Shown: one piece after another, positions 3,997 through 32,423 of the stretch
Position numbering within the stretch: position 1 is the stretch's first letter
Layout: each line of letters opens with the position of its first letter
Virus record (IMG/VR): IMGVR_UViG_3300037587_000599
Location: 1 to 37,342 of that record
Length of the DNA: 37,342 nucleotides
Direction: 5' to 3' (one strand)
Source: a virus
The notes under the pieces: generated by a model
Told to the model about the DNA's origin: nothing
The model's input: the letters and a program-made list of their open reading frames with translations, nothing else
Databases searched by the model: none
Translations under genes and position numbers: made by a program

Positions 3997-4766
3997 ATAA
4001 CCTCACTCATTTTGATTGACGTTGAGTATTGCTTGCCGCCGTTAGCGTCCCATTTTGGCATTTTGTCCATATAACCATACATGGCAAGTTTGAATTGCCC
4101 GTCATTAATTGCATCTGAATTAGGATCAATAATAATCCAAAGGGGTTCACTAATACCATGAACAGTAAACATATCATCTAATATTTCTTGTTCGGTTAAT
4201 GTTGCGAACTCTAGACCCCCGTCTAATAATTTAACCTTGTTCCGTTTATCAATGAACCTTTGACCGAAATCGTTTTCTTTGACCTTAGACAAGTCCTGTC
4301 TACCGTAACCGAATGAATCTATAGACAAACTCAAATCAGGTAAATTGATTCTCTCCCCTATAAATATTTTTGATATTTCTGAAAATGAACCTGTACCAGT
4401 CAACGTAATTTCAACGTATCGGCGACTAACGGGGGTTATAAATTCATATCCTATATTTTCTGTTGCTGAAATTGCTATAGGTATTGATGTACTACTCGAA
4501 AAATCTAACGTTACCGACGTTTTAATTGATACCGATGTGACACCGAATGAGCCGGTTGCATCCCCAACTAAGGCAAACGTGTCAATTGCCCGAGTCTGTA
4601 GTAGGTCAGCAACAATGACAACAGTATTCCCAACACTTCGAAACTTCCGAGTTGTTGTGTTGTTTTTTAAATTACTCAAAGGGAACTGTGCATTTTCACT
4701 ACCTGTAGTAATACTAAGGGTTGCAACATCGGCTAAGTTTTCAGATAAAAAATTAATACCGGACAT
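3993..4766 (-). CDS. Tail tip-associated protein, galactose-binding-like N-terminus
   Basis: A 257-residue protein. Residues 20-115 have the pattern FPLSNLKNNTTTRKFRS, then a hydrophobic AIDTFALVGDATG and a RRYVEITLTG strand, as in discoidin/carbohydrate-binding-like domains found just downstream of tape measure genes in many siphophages. The C-terminal half (EPLWIIIDP, FKLAMYGYMDKMPKW) fits the family of small tail-tip proteins in that position. It overlaps the tape measure stop by one base (TAATG), so the two are probably translated together. A role in the tail tip complex is inferred from order; the fold call is tentative. Confidence 0.65.
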   Translation of the reverse strand: MSGINFLSENLADVATLSITTGSENAQFPLSNLKNNTTTRKFRSVGNTVVIVADLLQTRAIDTFALVGDATGSFGVTSVSIKTSVTLDFSSSTSIPIAISATENIGYEFITPVSRRYVEITLTGTGSFSEISKIFIGERINLPDLSLSIDSFGYGRQDLSKVKENDFGQRFIDKRNKVKLLDGGLEFATLTEQEILDDMFTVHGISEPLWIIIDPNSDAINDGQFKLAMYGYMDKMPKWDANGGKQYSTSIKMSEVI

Positions 4767-7120
4767 TATGTAACCTCCCCTAATTCAAAACCGTTAGCAA
4801 CGTGCCGAGATACACTTTCTGTTATCTCTAAACCATCTAACACAATCGAGGTTCTAACTACAATATCACCACCACCGCCGGCACCGGAACCGTTAGCTAA
4901 TCTCATAAAGTTCCTTTGTTGTTGGGAGGTTATCACAGCCTCACCGCTATTACCTCTAAACAATAATTTATCACCACTAGGCGAATCACCACCTAAAAAC
5001 CCGCCATGTTCAAACCCCTTGATAGCTGATGCTGCGATGATACCACTACTCAACGTGGTGTTAGTCGTAATCAACGCCTGCATCTGTGCTAGTGCTGCAA
5101 GGTTTGCAGGGTATGGGATAGCTGCTGTCTGTGCTATTGCAGCAGCACGTGCAATACCGTCATTAATCCAGACCTGTGCAACCGCAGCAGCTTTCTGAAT
5201 TAAAAATTGCTCCTTTGAACCATCCTTAGCTAATGATGCTGCTAACGTAAAACCCTTACCTATTGCAGAATTTTTAAGATTCTGATTAGTCTTTTCGATT
5301 TTGACTTTAGCTTCCGAAATTTTCTTTTGAGCTGCTGCATCTGCGAGTCCAATTTTATTTATAGCTTCACTAAATTTACCGGCATCAACTAACTTTTTAG
5401 CATCCTCAGCTAACCTCAATGCAGTTTCAGAACCTAATTGATTCTGGATTCTTAAAAAAGACTCCTCCTCAAATAACCCTTGTTGGTCTGCCATTTCTAT
5501 ACGGTGGGCTAGGTCTGCTGTTAGTTCTTCTTGTCTAAATGCATCCTTGATTGATTTTTGTTTTTCTGCACCTTCACCACCACCAGTATCATCACCAAAC
5601 CCCGGCGGTAATTCAGGGCCTAAAGGTTGATCAAATATCAAACCGTCCTTAACTTTATTCTGCTTATCAATTAAACCCTGTAATTTTTCATTCAAACTAA
5701 CTAGAGAATTTTCGGCAAAAGTTAACGCGCCTTTAGTACCCATTATTCTATCAACAATGCTAGGACCTTCGGCACCAGATTGAACTCTCTTCAATCTTTC
5801 AATTTCAGTAGCAACCTCACCAATTATATCTTTTTGTCTATTAATTTCTCGATTGAGTTCATGTGCCTCTAATGCAGCACCCTTCAAATCTAAAGCCTTT
5901 AGACCATCAGCAAACGAGTTCATAAATGATGTGGCTTTATCTACAGTTCCATCAGTGAAAGGTTTTAAAACTAATCCCACTGATGCGCTCAAATTAAACC
6001 ATGCATTATCTAATTTTTGGATCTTAGATTCGGATGATTTAAACGCAGCTTCCGACTCCTCCATTAACGCAGTTGTATCTTGGATTGCGCGGTTTGCAGT
6101 TTCTACAGCATCTGTATATTTATCGTAACCTGTAACAATAGCGTTCACTGTTCTAATAACACGTTTATCAACAAGACCTAAATTCTGTAGTGTTGACGTC
6201 ATGCCCTCAGCAGATAACTTAGCACCATTCAAACCCTTAGCGAATAACTTAAACGCTTCAATTGGTTTATCCCTGAACGCCTCCACGAAAGTATCAGTTG
6301 ATACGTTAGCAGCATCAGCGAAATTCTTAAGGGCAGAACCGCCGTTAGTTACGGCTAATGTTATTTTCTGCATAATGGTTGCTGTACTTGTACCGGCAAC
6401 GGCAGCATCAACACCGAAACTTTTTAATGCAGTACCTAAGGCCAACACATCAGCAGCACCAAACTTAAATTGTGCGGTTGATTGACCTATGGAGGTAGCA
6501 GTATCAAGTAGCTCACCCTCCATAACTTCAAAATTGTTACCTAATTCAACAATTGCAGAACCGACTTTGTCAACATCCTGAATGCCTGTTGATGTTACGT
6601 TAAGTAAACGGGCCATTGATATTGCACCCGATTCACCAGCGATATCGGTTGCAGACTTTAACCTAGCCATAGTGTCAGTGAACTTGATTAAGTCCTTACT
6701 ACCTTTAACACCTAATTGTGCAGCAACTTTACCTAACCCGATAAGTTCAGTTGTTGCTACCGGTATATCTCGACTCAATTGTATAAATTCGTCACCCAAT
6801 GATGCTAATTCTTTACCTTGGGTATTGGTAGTTTTACCTAGACCGATTAATGCGGTTTCATATTCACGCGCATTTACAACAACGTCACCAACCGCTTCCG
6901 AAATTTCACTCAACGCCCTTACAGCTAAACCTGCTGTAAGATTACCGACAAATGAAGCTGCTGAAAGTTGTGATAATTTCAACTGCTTGTTTATGTTGCT
7001 TGTTGTTGCCTCGATTTTATTAAACTGTTTGTCAGCTACCTTAGCATGACCGTTCAACTCTGCCATGTTTTTATTAGCAGCGCTTAATAGTAGTTTTATA
7101 TCTATGTCTAAATTAGCCAC
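4766..7120 (-). CDS. Tail tape measure protein
   Basis: This 784-residue protein sets tail length and is ejected with the DNA. Its N-terminal 370 residues match the TP901-type tape measure core: AREYETALIGLGKTTN, then ELIGLGKVAAQLGV, then MQKITLAVTNGGSAL. A long helical stretch (about 410-620) follows, then an Ala-rich hydrophobic segment near 640-700. By the rule of about 0.15 nm per residue the tail would be near 118 nm. The start is a GTG at 7120 overlapping the chaperone extension gene by eight bases. It has no convincing ribosome site, so coupling is likely; an ATG 18 codons downstream is the alternative. It is preceded by the frameshifted chaperone pair, the standard siphovirus order. 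Confidence 0.92.
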   Translation of the reverse strand: MANLDIDIKLLLSAANKNMAELNGHAKVADKQFNKIEATTSNINKQLKLSQLSAASFVGNLTAGLAVRALSEISEAVGDVVVNAREYETALIGLGKTTNTQGKELASLGDEFIQLSRDIPVATTELIGLGKVAAQLGVKGSKDLIKFTDTMARLKSATDIAGESGAISMARLLNVTSTGIQDVDKVGSAIVELGNNFEVMEGELLDTATSIGQSTAQFKFGAADVLALGTALKSFGVDAAVAGTSTATIMQKITLAVTNGGSALKNFADAANVSTDTFVEAFRDKPIEAFKLFAKGLNGAKLSAEGMTSTLQNLGLVDKRVIRTVNAIVTGYDKYTDAVETANRAIQDTTALMEESEAAFKSSESKIQKLDNAWFNLSASVGLVLKPFTDGTVDKATSFMNSFADGLKALDLKGAALEAHELNREINRQKDIIGEVATEIERLKRVQSGAEGPSIVDRIMGTKGALTFAENSLVSLNEKLQGLIDKQNKVKDGLIFDQPLGPELPPGFGDDTGGGEGAEKQKSIKDAFRQEELTADLAHRIEMADQQGLFEEESFLRIQNQLGSETALRLAEDAKKLVDAGKFSEAINKIGLADAAAQKKISEAKVKIEKTNQNLKNSAIGKGFTLAASLAKDGSKEQFLIQKAAAVAQVWINDGIARAAAIAQTAAIPYPANLAALAQMQALITTNTTLSSGIIAASAIKGFEHGGFLGGDSPSGDKLLFRGNSGEAVITSQQQRNFMRLANGSGAGGGGDIVVRTSIVLDGLEITESVSRHVANGFELGEVT

Positions 7121-7502
7121 GTTTTTTATTTATCTCTTTCAATTGCTTAGTTTCAACTTCACCCTCAAGTTGTTCAAACACTTCAAATATATCTATCACC
7201 TTAGCGGGTTGGTCACTCATACAACCAGCAAACGGCATAACACCATTTTTTGAATACTGCCTGTAGAGGGTGTAGAAATAACTGAACCCCTCGAAATTTA
7301 ACGGGTTGTCGGTTTGAAATTCAACGTTTAAGGATCGGACTTTAGTTTTAGGTGCGGACTTATGTTTGGATAACACACGTTTAATAGCTTCCGGAGTATA
7401 GTTTCTAGATATCAATTGACTTTCCAAACTCTTGTCTCCTACTTGGTTGTAATGTCCAATCAACGTCACGTATTCCTGATTGGTTAACCCGCTTATTCTC
7501 AT
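7113..7502 (-). CDS. Tail assembly chaperone, frameshift extension (gpT-like part)
   Basis: The 129-codon frame from the ATG at 7502 is probably expressed mainly as the C-terminal part of a fusion with the gene at 7553-7963. The same frame is open upstream from 7559, and a slippery heptamer lies exactly in phase to move ribosomes into it. The predicted fusion has 135 residues of the first gene, 19 junction residues and these 129, 283 in all. It contains a conserved-looking GVMPFAG and ends KEINKKRG. In lambda the equivalent gpGT binds the tape measure and recruits tail tube subunits, and this gene abuts the tape measure. Independent initiation at 7502 is possible but its ribosome site (AAAGG only two bases before the ATG) is badly spaced. 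Confidence 0.8.
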   Translation of the reverse strand: MRISGLTNQEYVTLIGHYNQVGDKSLESQLISRNYTPEAIKRVLSKHKSAPKTKVRSLNVEFQTDNPLNFEGFSYFYTLYRQYSKNGVMPFAGCMSDQPAKVIDIFEVFEQLEGEVETKQLKEINKKRG

Positions 7503-7530
7503 AACCTTTCGATAAACTAAAGTTAGGAGC

Positions 7531-7565
7531 GGACTAAAAAACCACGAATACGTTAGTCCTTTTTT
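7531..7565 (-). promoter_or_regulatory. Programmed -1 ribosomal frameshift site
   Basis: On the minus strand the chaperone gene ends CCT GAA AAA AAG GAC TAA. The heptamer A AAA AAG (7565 to 7559) has the X XXY YYZ phasing of an efficient bacterial -1 slip site. After slipping, the frame reads GGA CTA ACG and has no stop before joining the downstream ORF in frame (57 bases, 19 codons, to its ATG). A 7-bp inverted repeat, GGACTAA at 7559-7553 and TTAGTCC at 7537-7531 with a 15-base loop, starts right at the slip site and could act as a stimulator. It is closer than the usual 5-8 base spacing. Confidence 0.82.
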
Positions 7566-7963
7566 TCAGGTAAATCCTTTGTTATTATCCGAACACCCTC
7601 TAAAACTTCATTAGTCGCAACGTCAATAAATTCATCAGGGATACCGTTAATCAATGCAATACATATAGACGAAATTTTAGAGTTACAACTAAGATTCATT
7701 AAATCACTTAATGCATCATCGGTTAATTTACCACCATCGAATTCTAATTGGTGTTCACTACCGTCGGGTGACGTTAAACCTTTGACGTTCTTAATAGCAT
7801 ATTGCAGGGCTAGAACTCCACCTTTCATCATACCATCAATATCCTTTGACAGCAGTAACGCTTGTATTTCACTCTTCTCATGGTAACTTAAAGGGCTAAC
7901 GTGTATTTCTATATCACCAACTTGAATTTTAACCCTATCACTTTTTCTATAAACAACTGACAT
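7553..7963 (-). CDS. Tail assembly chaperone (gpG-like part)
   Basis: This 136-residue protein lies between tail tube and tape measure, the position of the lambda G-type chaperone. It is a small mixed alpha/beta protein with the opening VKIQVGDIEIHVSPLSYHEK, a pattern of tail assembly chaperones that start with a short beta hairpin and continue in helices. The start ATG follows AAAGGG. The last codons carry the slippery run that yields the longer fusion with the next gene. In the lambda system the short and long forms together coat the tape measure and are absent from the finished virion. Confidence 0.8.
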   Translation of the reverse strand: MSVVYRKSDRVKIQVGDIEIHVSPLSYHEKSEIQALLLSKDIDGMMKGGVLALQYAIKNVKGLTSPDGSEHQLEFDGGKLTDDALSDLMNLSCNSKISSICIALINGIPDEFIDVATNEVLEGVRIITKDLPEKKD

Positions 7964-7979: not shown

Positions 7980-9173
7980 TTAGATTATTGAAATATAAAT
8001 TTCTTCACTGGTTCCATCAGTTCCACGGTTGGCAGAAAATGACAAAGTCTCCTGTAATAGACCATCCTGATCAGCTTCCGCATATTCAGTAACTAAACAG
8101 TTAGGCATAAAGAATGCTACGATATCTTGAACCTCACCGTCAACTCCAGTGGGGATAGACATAGACCCAAACAAACTAAACGGGGTGTTATTTTTGAACC
8201 TATTGAAGTTGTCAATATTATCATCCTGTTTGTAAGGATCGATGGTCCCTGACACAACCCGTTCTGTAATTCTAGATGATATTTTCCCATTTTCAGAACA
8301 AGTAGAAGTTTTAGAACCTAAAGTGTTTTCAATCGAAAAGGCAACACTATTCATTGGAATCTGTACACCATCCTGATAAATACACGCATTCAAAACGATA
8401 GGAGGTAATGCATCATCTAATGCTGGTGTGATGACTAATGCGCTTAGACTAGAATCCCAAGACAAACCCTCAAACCCAAAACTAAAGTCTGCTAACTGAC
8501 CTGTTGTGAAATTATTTAGGGCCATAGAAATGACTCGACAACCGGCAGCGGTTTCCTTTCGGGCATCCTCCATATATTTAGTCATTGAGAATGTTGGGTG
8601 TCCAGAGTTAGCTGGTACGTAAGTTGTTACGGCACTAATTACATCACCATCAGTAAACGCATTAGCAGCAGGGACTAATAGATCAATAAAAACATCACCA
8701 GGAGTGTCGCTAATTGCATCAATTGCAGAAACATGATGGTCACCAGAAACCTTTACATGTGCAACATCCCCAACCTTATACTTACCTGCATCTGAATCTA
8801 ACAAGTAAATTCTAGATGTGGTATGTGGGGTTGTGGAGTCTGTATCATCAGCAGTGCTAGTGGTAACTTGACGTTTAGAACCTAAGGCCGATTCGATCAA
8901 CAAACCGTATTCTGGTGCAGCACCCTCCACACCGGAAGCTTTAGCTTCAACAGGGATGCTACCTGTGACACTTTTCATTCCGGTTCTAGGTGTTGATTTA
9001 CCAATTGACGAATTCAGGTTGTTCCGTTCTAAAGTCTCCTGTGAAGGGCTGAATTCTAAACCATCAGCCAAAGGTGATAGGAAGTCCGAACCGGCAGTAG
9101 GTGCAACATAAACACCCTCTGTTACTTCAACATTAATCGCTACCTTCGTATTATTTTTGACCATATCAGCCAT
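7980..9173 (-). CDS. Major tail tube protein
   Basis: A 397-residue protein forming the tail tube by inference. The N-terminus (KVAINVEVTEGVYVAPTAG, then LEFSPSQETLERNNLNSS and TGMKSVTGSIPVE) follows the pattern of the Phage_tube_2-like tail tube family: the 'built from a reference, with step in the domain' openings TP-GT-Y and conserved G-V-G-IPVE. It is longer than simple lambda gpV-like tubes, so an extra surface domain is likely in the middle (about residues 95-190). A strong ribosome site (GGAG) precedes the ATG. It sits between the tail terminator candidate and the chaperones, the usual order. Confidence 0.85.
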   Translation of the reverse strand: MADMVKNNTKVAINVEVTEGVYVAPTAGSDFLSPLADGLEFSPSQETLERNNLNSSIGKSTPRTGMKSVTGSIPVEAKASGVEGAAPEYGLLIESALGSKRQVTTSTADDTDSTTPHTTSRIYLLDSDAGKYKVGDVAHVKVSGDHHVSAIDAISDTPGDVFIDLLVPAANAFTDGDVISAVTTYVPANSGHPTFSMTKYMEDARKETAAGCRVISMALNNFTTGQLADFSFGFEGLSWDSSLSALVITPALDDALPPIVLNACIYQDGVQIPMNSVAFSIENTLGSKTSTCSENGKISSRITERVVSGTIDPYKQDDNIDNFNRFKNNTPFSLFGSMSIPTGVDGEVQDIVAFFMPNCLVTEYAEADQDGLLQETLSFSANRGTDGTSEEIYISII

Positions 9174-15371: not shown

Positions 15372-16574
15372 TTAAATGTTAATTGTTCTAGATTTTTTAT
15401 ACATATCTCTTAATGGAAAGTGATACCAAGCTAAGTATCCTAAGCAGTCACTCATGTGTGACAACATATCATCCGTGTTGTCATGTGTGAACTTCTCTAA
15501 GTCTGCAATCAACTTCTTACATGACGGATGAATGATCAACCTGTTATGGGCTAGCAACCCATTGATGCAGTTGTACCTATCTTTGACTGCCGGGTTCGTT
15601 TTGATCTTGAGGATGAACCCTTTGTCTTTAAGTATTTGATGGTCTGTCGAAACTGCTGATGTTTTTCTACCCTTACCTGTAGAGTCGGGGTGTAGTGTGG
15701 TCTTGTGAGTACCGAACTGTTCATACAACATATCTGCCAATTCATACGTATTAGAATCTTTTTTCCAAGTCTCACCACCGATGAAAATCTTGTTGCCATG
15801 TATCCAACCCTGAACAGCAGTAATAGGTGATACATTAAAATCGCAACCGATTCGCCGCGTTGTATGTCTAAAGATCTTACGGTCAAATTCCCTAACGTGT
15901 TTATCTCGATCGAAAGCATGATACACCTGTCCTGCAAAAATGTTTATGTATTCACCATCACGTTCCTGTGCTAAGAACTTATCATCATATTGTGCTTCCA
16001 GTGTACGAATGTAATCATCTGGTAAATGCCTGTTGTCCATACTAGTTGCCGTAACTGTCTGTTTTGTTTCGTCTTTGTTCTCTTCAAAGAAGTCATGCAT
16101 CCAATTGAAACCTCTTGGAGTTGTGGTACATCTGAGTGTTCTTGGACCGTGCTTGTCTCGTAGCCGGCCTATGATTACTTGGATAGCTTCCCATTTATAA
16201 AGGGATGCCTCGTCTGCATAACACCACCCATATTCAGGACCACGTAGATCCTCATAATTCTTAACCGACCGGCAGTGAACTATCGTATTACCAATTTTCA
16301 ATTGTGCCTTGGCACCACCGAGATACCTGAAAGGGATTCCCAATTCTTCAAGCAACCTGAAAAGGGTGGGGAGGGTAGCATCATTCAACTGTTTGTATGA
16401 GGGTGCTGTGATTAGACCTAATGCCTTTGGATACTTAAGGACCATGTGAATTACGTGTGCTGCACCAGCATGTGTTTTACCAGAACCAAGCCCACCACGG
16501 AATAACCCAAATTTTGTATCAATTGCCAAAAAGTCCATTTGAGGTTTTGATAATGAGAGTTCCCTATCAATCAT
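15372..16574 (-). CDS. terL: Terminase large subunit
   Basis: The 400-residue DNA packaging motor. The ATPase domain has a Walker A-like GGLGSGKTH (residues 27-35), a Walker B WCYADEAS with D121 and E122, and a coupling TTTPRG at 150-155. The nuclease domain shows CDFNVSP with D245, a second acidic LHPDSTGKG near D297, and a C-terminal DDMLSHMSDCLGY acidic cluster, together the RNase H-like metal site. Length and motifs are normal. It starts at an ATG overlapping a tiny membrane peptide gene. With TerS upstream and portal downstream the packaging module is complete. Confidence 0.95.
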   Translation of the reverse strand: MIDRELSLSKPQMDFLAIDTKFGLFRGGLGSGKTHAGAAHVIHMVLKYPKALGLITAPSYKQLNDATLPTLFRLLEELGIPFRYLGGAKAQLKIGNTIVHCRSVKNYEDLRGPEYGWCYADEASLYKWEAIQVIIGRLRDKHGPRTLRCTTTPRGFNWMHDFFEENKDETKQTVTATSMDNRHLPDDYIRTLEAQYDDKFLAQERDGEYINIFAGQVYHAFDRDKHVREFDRKIFRHTTRRIGCDFNVSPITAVQGWIHGNKIFIGGETWKKDSNTYELADMLYEQFGTHKTTLHPDSTGKGRKTSAVSTDHQILKDKGFILKIKTNPAVKDRYNCINGLLAHNRLIIHPSCKKLIADLEKFTHDNTDDMLSHMSDCLGYLAWYHFPLRDMYKKSRTINI

Positions 16575-29747: not shown

Positions 29748-30262
29748 TGAGTAACTTCAAATATAGGGTTGGTTCTAATGTTTTAGATATTGTCGATAGT
29801 GAGTTGTTTACTGTTAGTTTTGTTGATTCTTCTGAAAAACCGATAAGAATAGGATTAATTGATTCTGTCGGTCGGTTAAATATATTCACTGAAAACTATT
29901 TATTTACACACTTTAGCTTGCCCACAATTTCGGATAATTGTGATAAGTTTAAAAAACACGTTGAACAATTCACCCAAGATAAAGTTCAAGATAACCTGAT
30001 GTGGCGCGTTAGTGGGTTAGTTGAGGAGGCAGGTGAGGTCCTTCAAATAATCCGAGAACTTGAATATAAAAATAAACTTGTAGATGTTAACCACCTCAAG
30101 GAGGAATTAGGTGATGTTTTATATTATGTTCAATCGTTAGCCAATAGGTTCGGGTTGACGCTTGATGATATCAAACAGGCAAACATTGATAAACTAAACA
30201 AACGATTCCCTAGTGGTGAGTACACTACCAAGGATGCTATTAGGAAGGTAGACCATGAATAA
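29747..30262 (+). CDS. MazG-family nucleotide pyrophosphohydrolase with N-terminal beta module
   Basis: I use the ATG at 29747 (171 residues), six bases after AAGGTGG and overlapping the previous stop; a GTG three bases earlier is in frame. Residues 63-170 are MazG-like: GLVEEAGEVLQIIRE (E93, E94, E97) and KEELGDVLYYV (E120, D123) give the metal-binding EExxE and ExxD. Residues 5-57 (YRVGSNVLDIVDSELFTVSF) look like a third, diverged copy of the module found twice in the upstream enzyme. MazG proteins hydrolyse NTPs or ppGpp; the phage substrate is unknown. The stop overlaps PolB by eight bases. Confidence 0.85.
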   Translation: MSNFKYRVGSNVLDIVDSELFTVSFVDSSEKPIRIGLIDSVGRLNIFTENYLFTHFSLPTISDNCDKFKKHVEQFTQDKVQDNLMWRVSGLVEEAGEVLQIIRELEYKNKLVDVNHLKEELGDVLYYVQSLANRFGLTLDDIKQANIDKLNKRFPSGEYTTKDAIRKVDHE

Positions 30263-32423
30263 AAATCTAATCTATGGTAAAGATGCCACCGAGAATATAG
30301 TATCAATTGAAGTTGTTGGTGACCATCTGGAAGTGTTCACTGAAACCAATGGTGTGGTTGAATGTCACGTCAAAGAGTATGACGGTCAATTTATGGTGTT
30401 CCATAAACCTTTATCAGATAAGATGTTGGAACTTGATGGTGATTTATTTTACAAATACATTATCAACTATAAGGACCTAGGTAAATTGAAGGAAGTTAAG
30501 CAAACTTGTTACAAAAAAAGACGTGAGTTTTTTACTGTTGCAGAACCTAAAGAGAACTCAATGTTACAGTCGGGCATGACTTATTTTAATGGCATGGAAC
30601 CTAAACAAGTCTCGATTCTATCATTTGATTTGGAGACCACATCATTAACCCATAGCGATGAATCCAAAATTTTGATTATATCCAACACCTTTAGAAACAA
30701 CAAAGGTAAAGGTAACACTATTAGAAAATTGTTCTGTCATGATGATTATGATTGTGAGGGTGATATGATTGTTGCTTGGTGTGATTGGGTGACTTCCGTT
30801 GATCCTTCGATTATATGTGGGCACAATATATACGGGTATGACTTCCCTTACCTTAGATATTGTGCAGAACGTGCAGGGGTTGATTTGTGTCTAGGCCGAG
30901 ACCTCTCCTCTATTAAATTCAACCCTAGGTTATCCAAGAAAAGAAAGGACGGTTCTCAAGAATACGAGTACACAAATTGTTGGATCTATGGACGTGAGAT
31001 TGTTGATACGTTTTTCTTAGCTATTACATATGACATCGGTCGGAAGTATCCTAGTTATGGGTTGAAACCTATTATCGAATTTGAGGGTTTGGAAGTTAAA
31101 GGTCGACAACATTATGACGCATCAACCATCAGGCATAATTACAAAAATGAGGAGGAATGGGTTAAGATCAAAAAGTATGCTGAACATGATGCCGATGATT
31201 CGTTAGCTTTATTTGACTTGATGATACCTTCATTTTTTCACTACACTAAGTCTATCCCTAAACCGTTTCAACAGATTATCAATACGGCAACAGGTTCTCA
31301 GGTAAACTCTGTTATGATTCGAGGTTACTTACAGGATGGTCACAGCTTACCCAAATCTAGTGAAGCAGAACATTTTGAGGGTGCTATATCATTCGGTAAC
31401 CCGGGCATGTATAAAAGGGTTTACAAAGTTGACGTTGCTTCCTTGTACCCATCAATCATGCGACACTTTAAAGTGTGTGATGTTGCCAAAGATCCAAAGG
31501 GTTTATTTTTGGAATTGATTGAGACCTTTACCGTTGAACGTCTTAAGAATAAAGAACAATTCAAAGAAACCGGTGAACGGATCTATTCGGACCTTTCAGA
31601 TTCTCAGAAAATATTCATTAACTCAGGTTATGGGTTTCTTGGCGCACAGGGGTTATTATTCAATTCACCCGAAAATGCGTCATTTGTTACCCGTAAAGGT
31701 AGGATGATTTTAACTAAGGGTTTGGACTGGTGTAAGGCTAAGGGTTATCCTGTTGTTAATGCTGATACAGATTCATTTAGTTATGTTGGCCCTACAGGTT
31801 ACAACAAAGAATCATTTAAGGATGACATAGATGACCTCAACAAACTTTTCCCTGAGTTGATTGTTTGGGAGGATGATGGTACTTACAAAAAAGTCATTGT
31901 CGTTAAAACTAAAAATTACATTTTAGATGATGGTAAAAAAATTATCATCAAGGGTAGTTCACTTAAGGCAACAATGAAGGAACCCATCCTGAAACAAATG
32001 ATTAAGGATATTATTAAACACCTGTTGAATGATGCACCCTACATTCTACCTGCAATCTATGATAGATATGTGGGCATGGTCGAAGAGATTGAAACTGGTG
32101 TTGATATGGCCAATTGGGCATCAAAAAAGACAGTAACCGAATCAGTTTTAAAAGGCACTGAAACGACAGCACGAAAAATGCGGGCAGCAATAGGCACTAA
32201 GCATGTTCAGGAGGGGGACAAATTACATGTATTTTTTAAGGAGGATGAATCATTGTGTCTACTTGAAAACTTCAATGGCGACTTTTCTAGAAACAAATTG
32301 TATGAAAAGATTTACAAAACGTTGTGCATATTTGACACATTATTTTCAATGGATATGATATGTGATTTTTCTAAAAAAACTAAAGATAAAAAAATGGAGG
32401 CGTATTTCAATGAGGTTTATTAA
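30255..32423 (+). CDS. Family B DNA polymerase
   Basis: The 722-residue replicative polymerase. The proofreading domain has Exo I FDLETT (D125, E127), Exo II GHNIYGYDFPYL (N191, D196) and Exo III YAEHDADDS (Y308, D312). The polymerase domain has motif A KVDVASLYPSIM (D393), motif B KIFINSGYGFLG (K452, N456, Y459) and motif C NADTDSFS (D504, D506), then KTKNY (K553-Y555). All catalytic residues are present. The absence of a terminal protein-type TPR insertion or gene suggests ordinary primed synthesis with the upstream primase-helicase. GGAAGG lies before the ATG. Confidence 0.95.
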   Translation: MNKNLIYGKDATENIVSIEVVGDHLEVFTETNGVVECHVKEYDGQFMVFHKPLSDKMLELDGDLFYKYIINYKDLGKLKEVKQTCYKKRREFFTVAEPKENSMLQSGMTYFNGMEPKQVSILSFDLETTSLTHSDESKILIISNTFRNNKGKGNTIRKLFCHDDYDCEGDMIVAWCDWVTSVDPSIICGHNIYGYDFPYLRYCAERAGVDLCLGRDLSSIKFNPRLSKKRKDGSQEYEYTNCWIYGREIVDTFFLAITYDIGRKYPSYGLKPIIEFEGLEVKGRQHYDASTIRHNYKNEEEWVKIKKYAEHDADDSLALFDLMIPSFFHYTKSIPKPFQQIINTATGSQVNSVMIRGYLQDGHSLPKSSEAEHFEGAISFGNPGMYKRVYKVDVASLYPSIMRHFKVCDVAKDPKGLFLELIETFTVERLKNKEQFKETGERIYSDLSDSQKIFINSGYGFLGAQGLLFNSPENASFVTRKGRMILTKGLDWCKAKGYPVVNADTDSFSYVGPTGYNKESFKDDIDDLNKLFPELIVWEDDGTYKKVIVVKTKNYILDDGKKIIIKGSSLKATMKEPILKQMIKDIIKHLLNDAPYILPAIYDRYVGMVEEIETGVDMANWASKKTVTESVLKGTETTARKMRAAIGTKHVQEGDKLHVFFKEDESLCLLENFNGDFSRNKLYEKIYKTLCIFDTLFSMDMICDFSKKTKDKKMEAYFNEVY

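Follow-up and report, generated by a model that had tools for sequence, protein, structure and literature searches.

In the 37,342-nt viral sequence analysed here (hereafter the window), a programmed −1 ribosomal frameshift almost certainly joins two tail assembly chaperone frames, designated G and T below, in an arrangement of the lambda G/GT type. The frame relation of the two genes, the slippery heptamer, the conserved linker that follows it and the gene order are all directly apparent in the sequences of the window and its relatives.

The whole feature lies on the minus strand, which the initial annotation had left unspecified. The G gene (7553-7963, with its ATG at 7963 and its TAA ending at 7553) codes for a 136-residue candidate tail assembly chaperone, the zero-frame product, which has homologues at 35 other loci. 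Its 3' end reads ...GAT TTA CCT GAA AAA AAG GAC TAA CG... on the minus strand, and because of the seven A's in this reading the heptamer A AAA AAG (7565-7559) falls in exact X XXY YYZ phase, as the initial annotation had noted. One sense codon, GAC, separates the heptamer from the TAA stop of G (7555-7553). The first −1 codon, GGA, has its first base in common with the heptamer, and from 7565 onwards no stop interrupts the −1 frame until the one that ends at 7113. The T coding region in this frame (7113-7559) comprises 148 residues after the slip, plus the stop. Its first 19 codons (GLTYSWFFSPLLTLVYRKV, 7503-7559), from the slip to the first ATG at 7502, constitute a transframe linker. The opening of these 19 codons in frame with the next ORF had been read correctly from the start, and the length predicted for the fusion, 135 + 148 = 283 residues, agrees with that initially proposed; its junction residues would be KKGLTYSWFFSPLL. 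The pair had also been placed between tail tube and tape measure genes. Upstream we found a gene for a tail tube protein (7980-9173, PF18906, E = 2.4e-13) and downstream a gene for a 784-residue tape measure protein (4766-7120, phrog_13339, E = 1.3e-58), both likewise on the minus strand and with homologues at the same places in the relatives.

Using the tail tube protein of the window, we retrieved three IMG/VR relatives, at 73, 58 and 45% identity. In L003 and L004, an in-phase GAA AAA AAG stands shortly ahead of the G stop; in L002, the closest relative, AGA AAA AAG directly precedes it. Further IMG/VR relatives were collected by profile searches with G and T alignments built from these four loci, and in almost all of the loci both frames could be placed with profile HMMs. 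After removal of duplicates, the family set consisted of 36 distinct IMG/VR loci, including the window; these are mutually related, and counts among them are therefore not independent. Identity to the window goes down to 20% for G and to 16% for T across the set, and the divergence of the 36-sequence T alignment was too great for a degenerate-pattern scan. Of a different nature is a peculiarity of L004, whose tail tube gene (4001-5180) is split into two overlapping frames (4001-4477 and 4440-5180), by an assembly error or by another frame change.

The G/T family is absent from Pfam and PHROGs, and its sequences have no match in the isolate phage collection that we searched. Neither G nor T of the window matched any Pfam or PHROG entry, and comparisons of G or T with named chaperone families returned no sequence match at E values up to 0.1. 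In INPHARED (50,697 phage records), tblastn searches with G and T of the window, with its tail tube protein and with the T proteins of L047, L018 and L036 gave no match. A single-sequence search for loci related to the window G found nothing, and two scans of bacterial and archaeal genomes yielded no relative. Elsewhere in the window, the nearest isolate relatives of a family B DNA polymerase (30255-32423) are found in Salinibacter phages, at 24-30% identity, and the large terminase (15372-16574) is nearest to those of Prochlorococcus siphophages such as MED4-184, at 32% identity.

All 36 loci have T in the −1 frame with respect to G. Within the overlap, an in-phase X XXY YYZ heptamer is present at 35 of them, versus 2.4 expected from codon shuffling within each G gene, a comparison that does not translate into a strict probability because the loci are related. 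The conservation of the heptamer in related phages, suggested in the initial annotation as the comparison to make, is thus borne out. A AAA AAG accounts for 26 loci, versus 0.27 expected by codon shuffling, and the heptamers that replace it are also slippery, namely A AAA AAA (four loci), A AAA AAC (one), G GGA AAG (L017), G GGA AAC (L010 and L037) and C CCA AAG (L045). For the window by itself, 0.25% of shuffles of the G codons placed A AAA AAG in the short overlap, and 4.1% placed some X XXY YYZ heptamer there. Over the first 20 codons past the slip, the 36 loci together have no stop codon in the −1 frame, whereas the G frame contains 82 stops and the third frame 49. The linker is conserved as protein across the 36 loci, with a mean BLOSUM62 score of 0.46 versus −0.90 for shuffled sequences.

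These data also bear on whether T might be a separate gene, translated from ATG 7502 by reinitiation or from its own ribosome binding site, with the heptamer being incidental. In the window this ATG is preceded by AAAGG, two bases away, a spacing shorter than an efficient ribosome binding site would require, and some ATG is present within 30 codons of the slip at 15 of the 36 loci. However, the other 21 loci have no ATG within 30 codons after the slip, and 11 of the 36 have no ATG, GTG or TTG in that interval. The protein-level conservation of the 19 codons preceding the ATG also argues against a separate start, which moreover leaves the conservation of the heptamer unexplained. In the AlphaFold2 model of T (pLDDT 87), predicted helix 1 spans residues 12-25 and covers the internal ATG codon at residue 22, so initiation at 7502 would probably cut the T domain. 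We consider an independent T gene very unlikely. Because the linker is conserved, helix 1 covers the ATG and many loci are devoid of start codons, T is most simply explained as being made only as part of a fusion.

RNA polymerase slippage on the A7 run, instead of a shift by ribosomes, could also change the frame. The seven consecutive A's of the window and the runs of seven to nine A's in several relatives would be in line with it, but several other relatives, e.g. L006 and L018, have only six A's before the G, and L010, L017, L037 and L045, carry G GGA AAC/AAG or C CCA AAG in place of a homopolymer. Such non-homopolymer and six-A sites fit tandem tRNA slippage and not slippage on a homopolymer. 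The X XXY YYZ phase is kept throughout, and the enrichment upstream of the slip of sequences complementary to the anti-Shine-Dalgarno (anti-SD) sequence, presented below, points to ribosomes, which makes polymerase slippage extremely improbable. As for a disabled or mis-sequenced single gene, which the homopolymer at the break might evoke, its probability is negligible, since 35 other contigs show the same −1 relation and 34 of these have an in-phase slip site at the corresponding position. Altogether, the −1 frame relation, the heptamers, the open −1 frame, the linker and the missing start codons strongly support the programmed −1 frameshifting put forward in the initial annotation.

A single locus, L039, has both frames intact and no full heptamer in the overlap, a combination that had been held in advance to speak against a frameshift. 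The G and T sequence scores of L040-L042 are the same as those of L039. The start of T in L039, KVIGP, aligns with KKVIG of L023, L036 and L044. This alignment suggests a shift at GTA AAG TAA (region 658-688), where no more than half of a heptamer, A AAG, precedes the stop. Single-tRNA slippage is possible at A AAG, and L039 is a candidate for a slip site of this kind. A strong stem-loop is located just downstream of the putative slip site.

We looked for elements that might stimulate slippage on both sides of the heptamer. A Shine-Dalgarno (SD)-like element located 7-11 nt upstream of the slip is enriched across the family, with a z score of −7.6 relative to codon shuffling and of −4.2 relative to synonymous resampling, a level reached by none of 300 resamples. 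Short purine motifs are found upstream at 20 loci, versus 11.8 expected from synonymous resampling. In the window, the candidate element is AAAGGA (7574-7579), with a gap of 8 nt to the slip; its predicted duplex of −5.4 kcal/mol, which alone is not significant (P = 0.25), was calculated with the general bacterial anti-SD sequence. On the downstream side, 45-nt segments of the 36 loci that start 0-6 nt past the slip are predicted to form somewhat more stable structures than shuffled sequences, with an effect exceeding that at other offsets (mean z about −0.85; 9-10 of 36 below −2). At the usual spacing of about 5-9 nt after the heptamer, the window itself has no 3' structure (z = +1.05). It lacks a dnaX-like 3' stem-loop at this spacing and is not classed as such a cassette.

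The initial annotation had drawn attention to a 7-bp inverted repeat starting at the slip site (7531-7559). This repeat is indeed exact, with arms GGACTAA (7559-7553) and TTAGTCC (7537-7531), and a 7-bp repeat within 40 nt from the last slip base was obtained in 0.8% of mononucleotide shuffles; as a possible functional element, it did not hold up. It starts on the final base of the heptamer, which would place its 5' arm within the ribosome during decoding; the stimulator spacers usually studied measure 5-9 nt, with wider variation known (PMC5009743). The repeat is absent from L002, and long repeats are not in excess family-wide (36 loci). Because it includes the last slip base, is missing in the closest relative and shows no enrichment in the family, it is probably incidental and not a stimulator, and we rejected it as a classical one, too close to the slip site and unconserved. 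The upstream SD-like element is thus, as judged from these comparisons, the better candidate stimulator. When read on the plus strand, the region (7531-7565) consists of the inverted repeat followed by seven T's and resembles a weak terminator that would be in antisense orientation to the tail genes. This role was rejected as well, given the antisense orientation, the lack of conservation and the absence of the repeat from the list of our terminator scan, whose loop limit of 3-8 nt leaves the 15-nt loop of the repeat outside its range.

The order tube, G, T, tape measure is found throughout the family. The ORF of ~400 codons upstream in the relatives matches PF18906 in 18 of 31 cases, and most of the others align with the tail tube ORF at 36% identity or more. 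The downstream ORF matches one tape measure PHROG in 24 of 31 cases. The AlphaFold2 model of G (pLDDT 92) was compared with solved structures using VIA-align, which gave Z scores of 6.4 for 5IR0, 5.1 for 2OB9 and 5.0 for 3FGX, followed by an entry at 2.1. The predicted G model aligns with the HK97 tail assembly chaperone (2OB9) over 85 residues with an rmsd of 4.1 and 7% identity over the aligned part, the Z score being moderate. Foldseek gave an E value of 0.67 for the G model. Many of its BFVD neighbours are named tail assembly chaperone, at best E values of 0.01-0.1, and none passes 0.001. The T model yielded no convincing fold match (best BFVD E value, 0.64; best VIA-align Z score, 4.0). 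The gene order and the resemblance of the predicted G fold to the HK97 chaperone support the lambda G/GT reading made initially. As a separate observation, the T domains of 15 of the 36 relatives, including L018, L019, L038, L046, L047, L048 and L049, harbour a CxxC...C...C cluster that may bind a metal; T of the window and of its nearest relatives lacks this cluster.

The −1 frameshift system of lambda G/GT is described in PMC5009743, which cites Levin 1993 and Xu 2004. According to that paper, gpG and gpGT (molar ratio 30:1) bind the tape measure protein, T binds the tube protein, and the G/GT-type arrangement is conserved despite low sequence similarity. Like the lambda genes, the pair of the window consists of overlapping ORFs between the tail tube and tape measure genes, with the second in the −1 frame and a slippery heptamer shortly before the first one terminates. 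The lambda slip site is G GGA AAG, the very heptamer found in the relative L017. Unlike lambda, the window pair has no sequence similarity detectable by family libraries and its slip site is A AAA AAG; in addition, the linker here is the start of the T domain, and the SD-like element is enriched upstream of the slip in the family. Escherichia coli dnaX offers a second comparison, with the same A AAA AAG heptamer and an SD-like element about 10 nt upstream. In dnaX, the internal Shine-Dalgarno sequence is positioned 10 nt upstream of the frameshift site (PMC5009743). A 3' stem-loop is likewise present in some relatives, whereas the window is without a good one at the usual spacing. The genes are unrelated, however, and the shift in dnaX shortens the product, whereas here it would extend it.

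We propose that most ribosomes would terminate at the TAA (7555-7553) and release the short chaperone G of 136 residues. In a minority of cases, the lysyl-tRNAs in the P and A sites would slip back by one base on A AAA AAG, and the slipped ribosomes would read on in the T frame, yielding the 283-residue GT fusion. By analogy with lambda, G may form a coat on the tape measure protein, and the T domain may serve to bring in tail tube subunits. As in other pairs of this type, G and GT would be expected in unequal amounts, both required for tail formation but missing from the virion. We infer the slippage in the host, its efficiency and the G:GT ratio, as well as the stimulation of slippage by the upstream SD-like element. 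A broader reading, which we put forward tentatively as possible but somewhat doubtful, would be that the 36 loci represent a family of tail chaperone pairs not named before and without members among the isolate phages searched, in which A AAA AAG combined with an upstream SD-like stimulator is a general setter of the G:GT ratio, and in which ~40% of the T domains carry a metal-binding-like CxxC...C...C motif.

Frameshifting in tail chaperone genes has itself long been known. This G/T family is missing from Pfam and PHROGs, and gene callers will therefore keep missing the GT fusion. Our finding confirms this type of recoding, which is among the most widely conserved in tailed phages, in a phage group unmatched among the isolates searched. 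With its slip-site variants and its upstream SD-like signal, the set of 36 loci provides a comparative set for testing how phages tune frameshifting.
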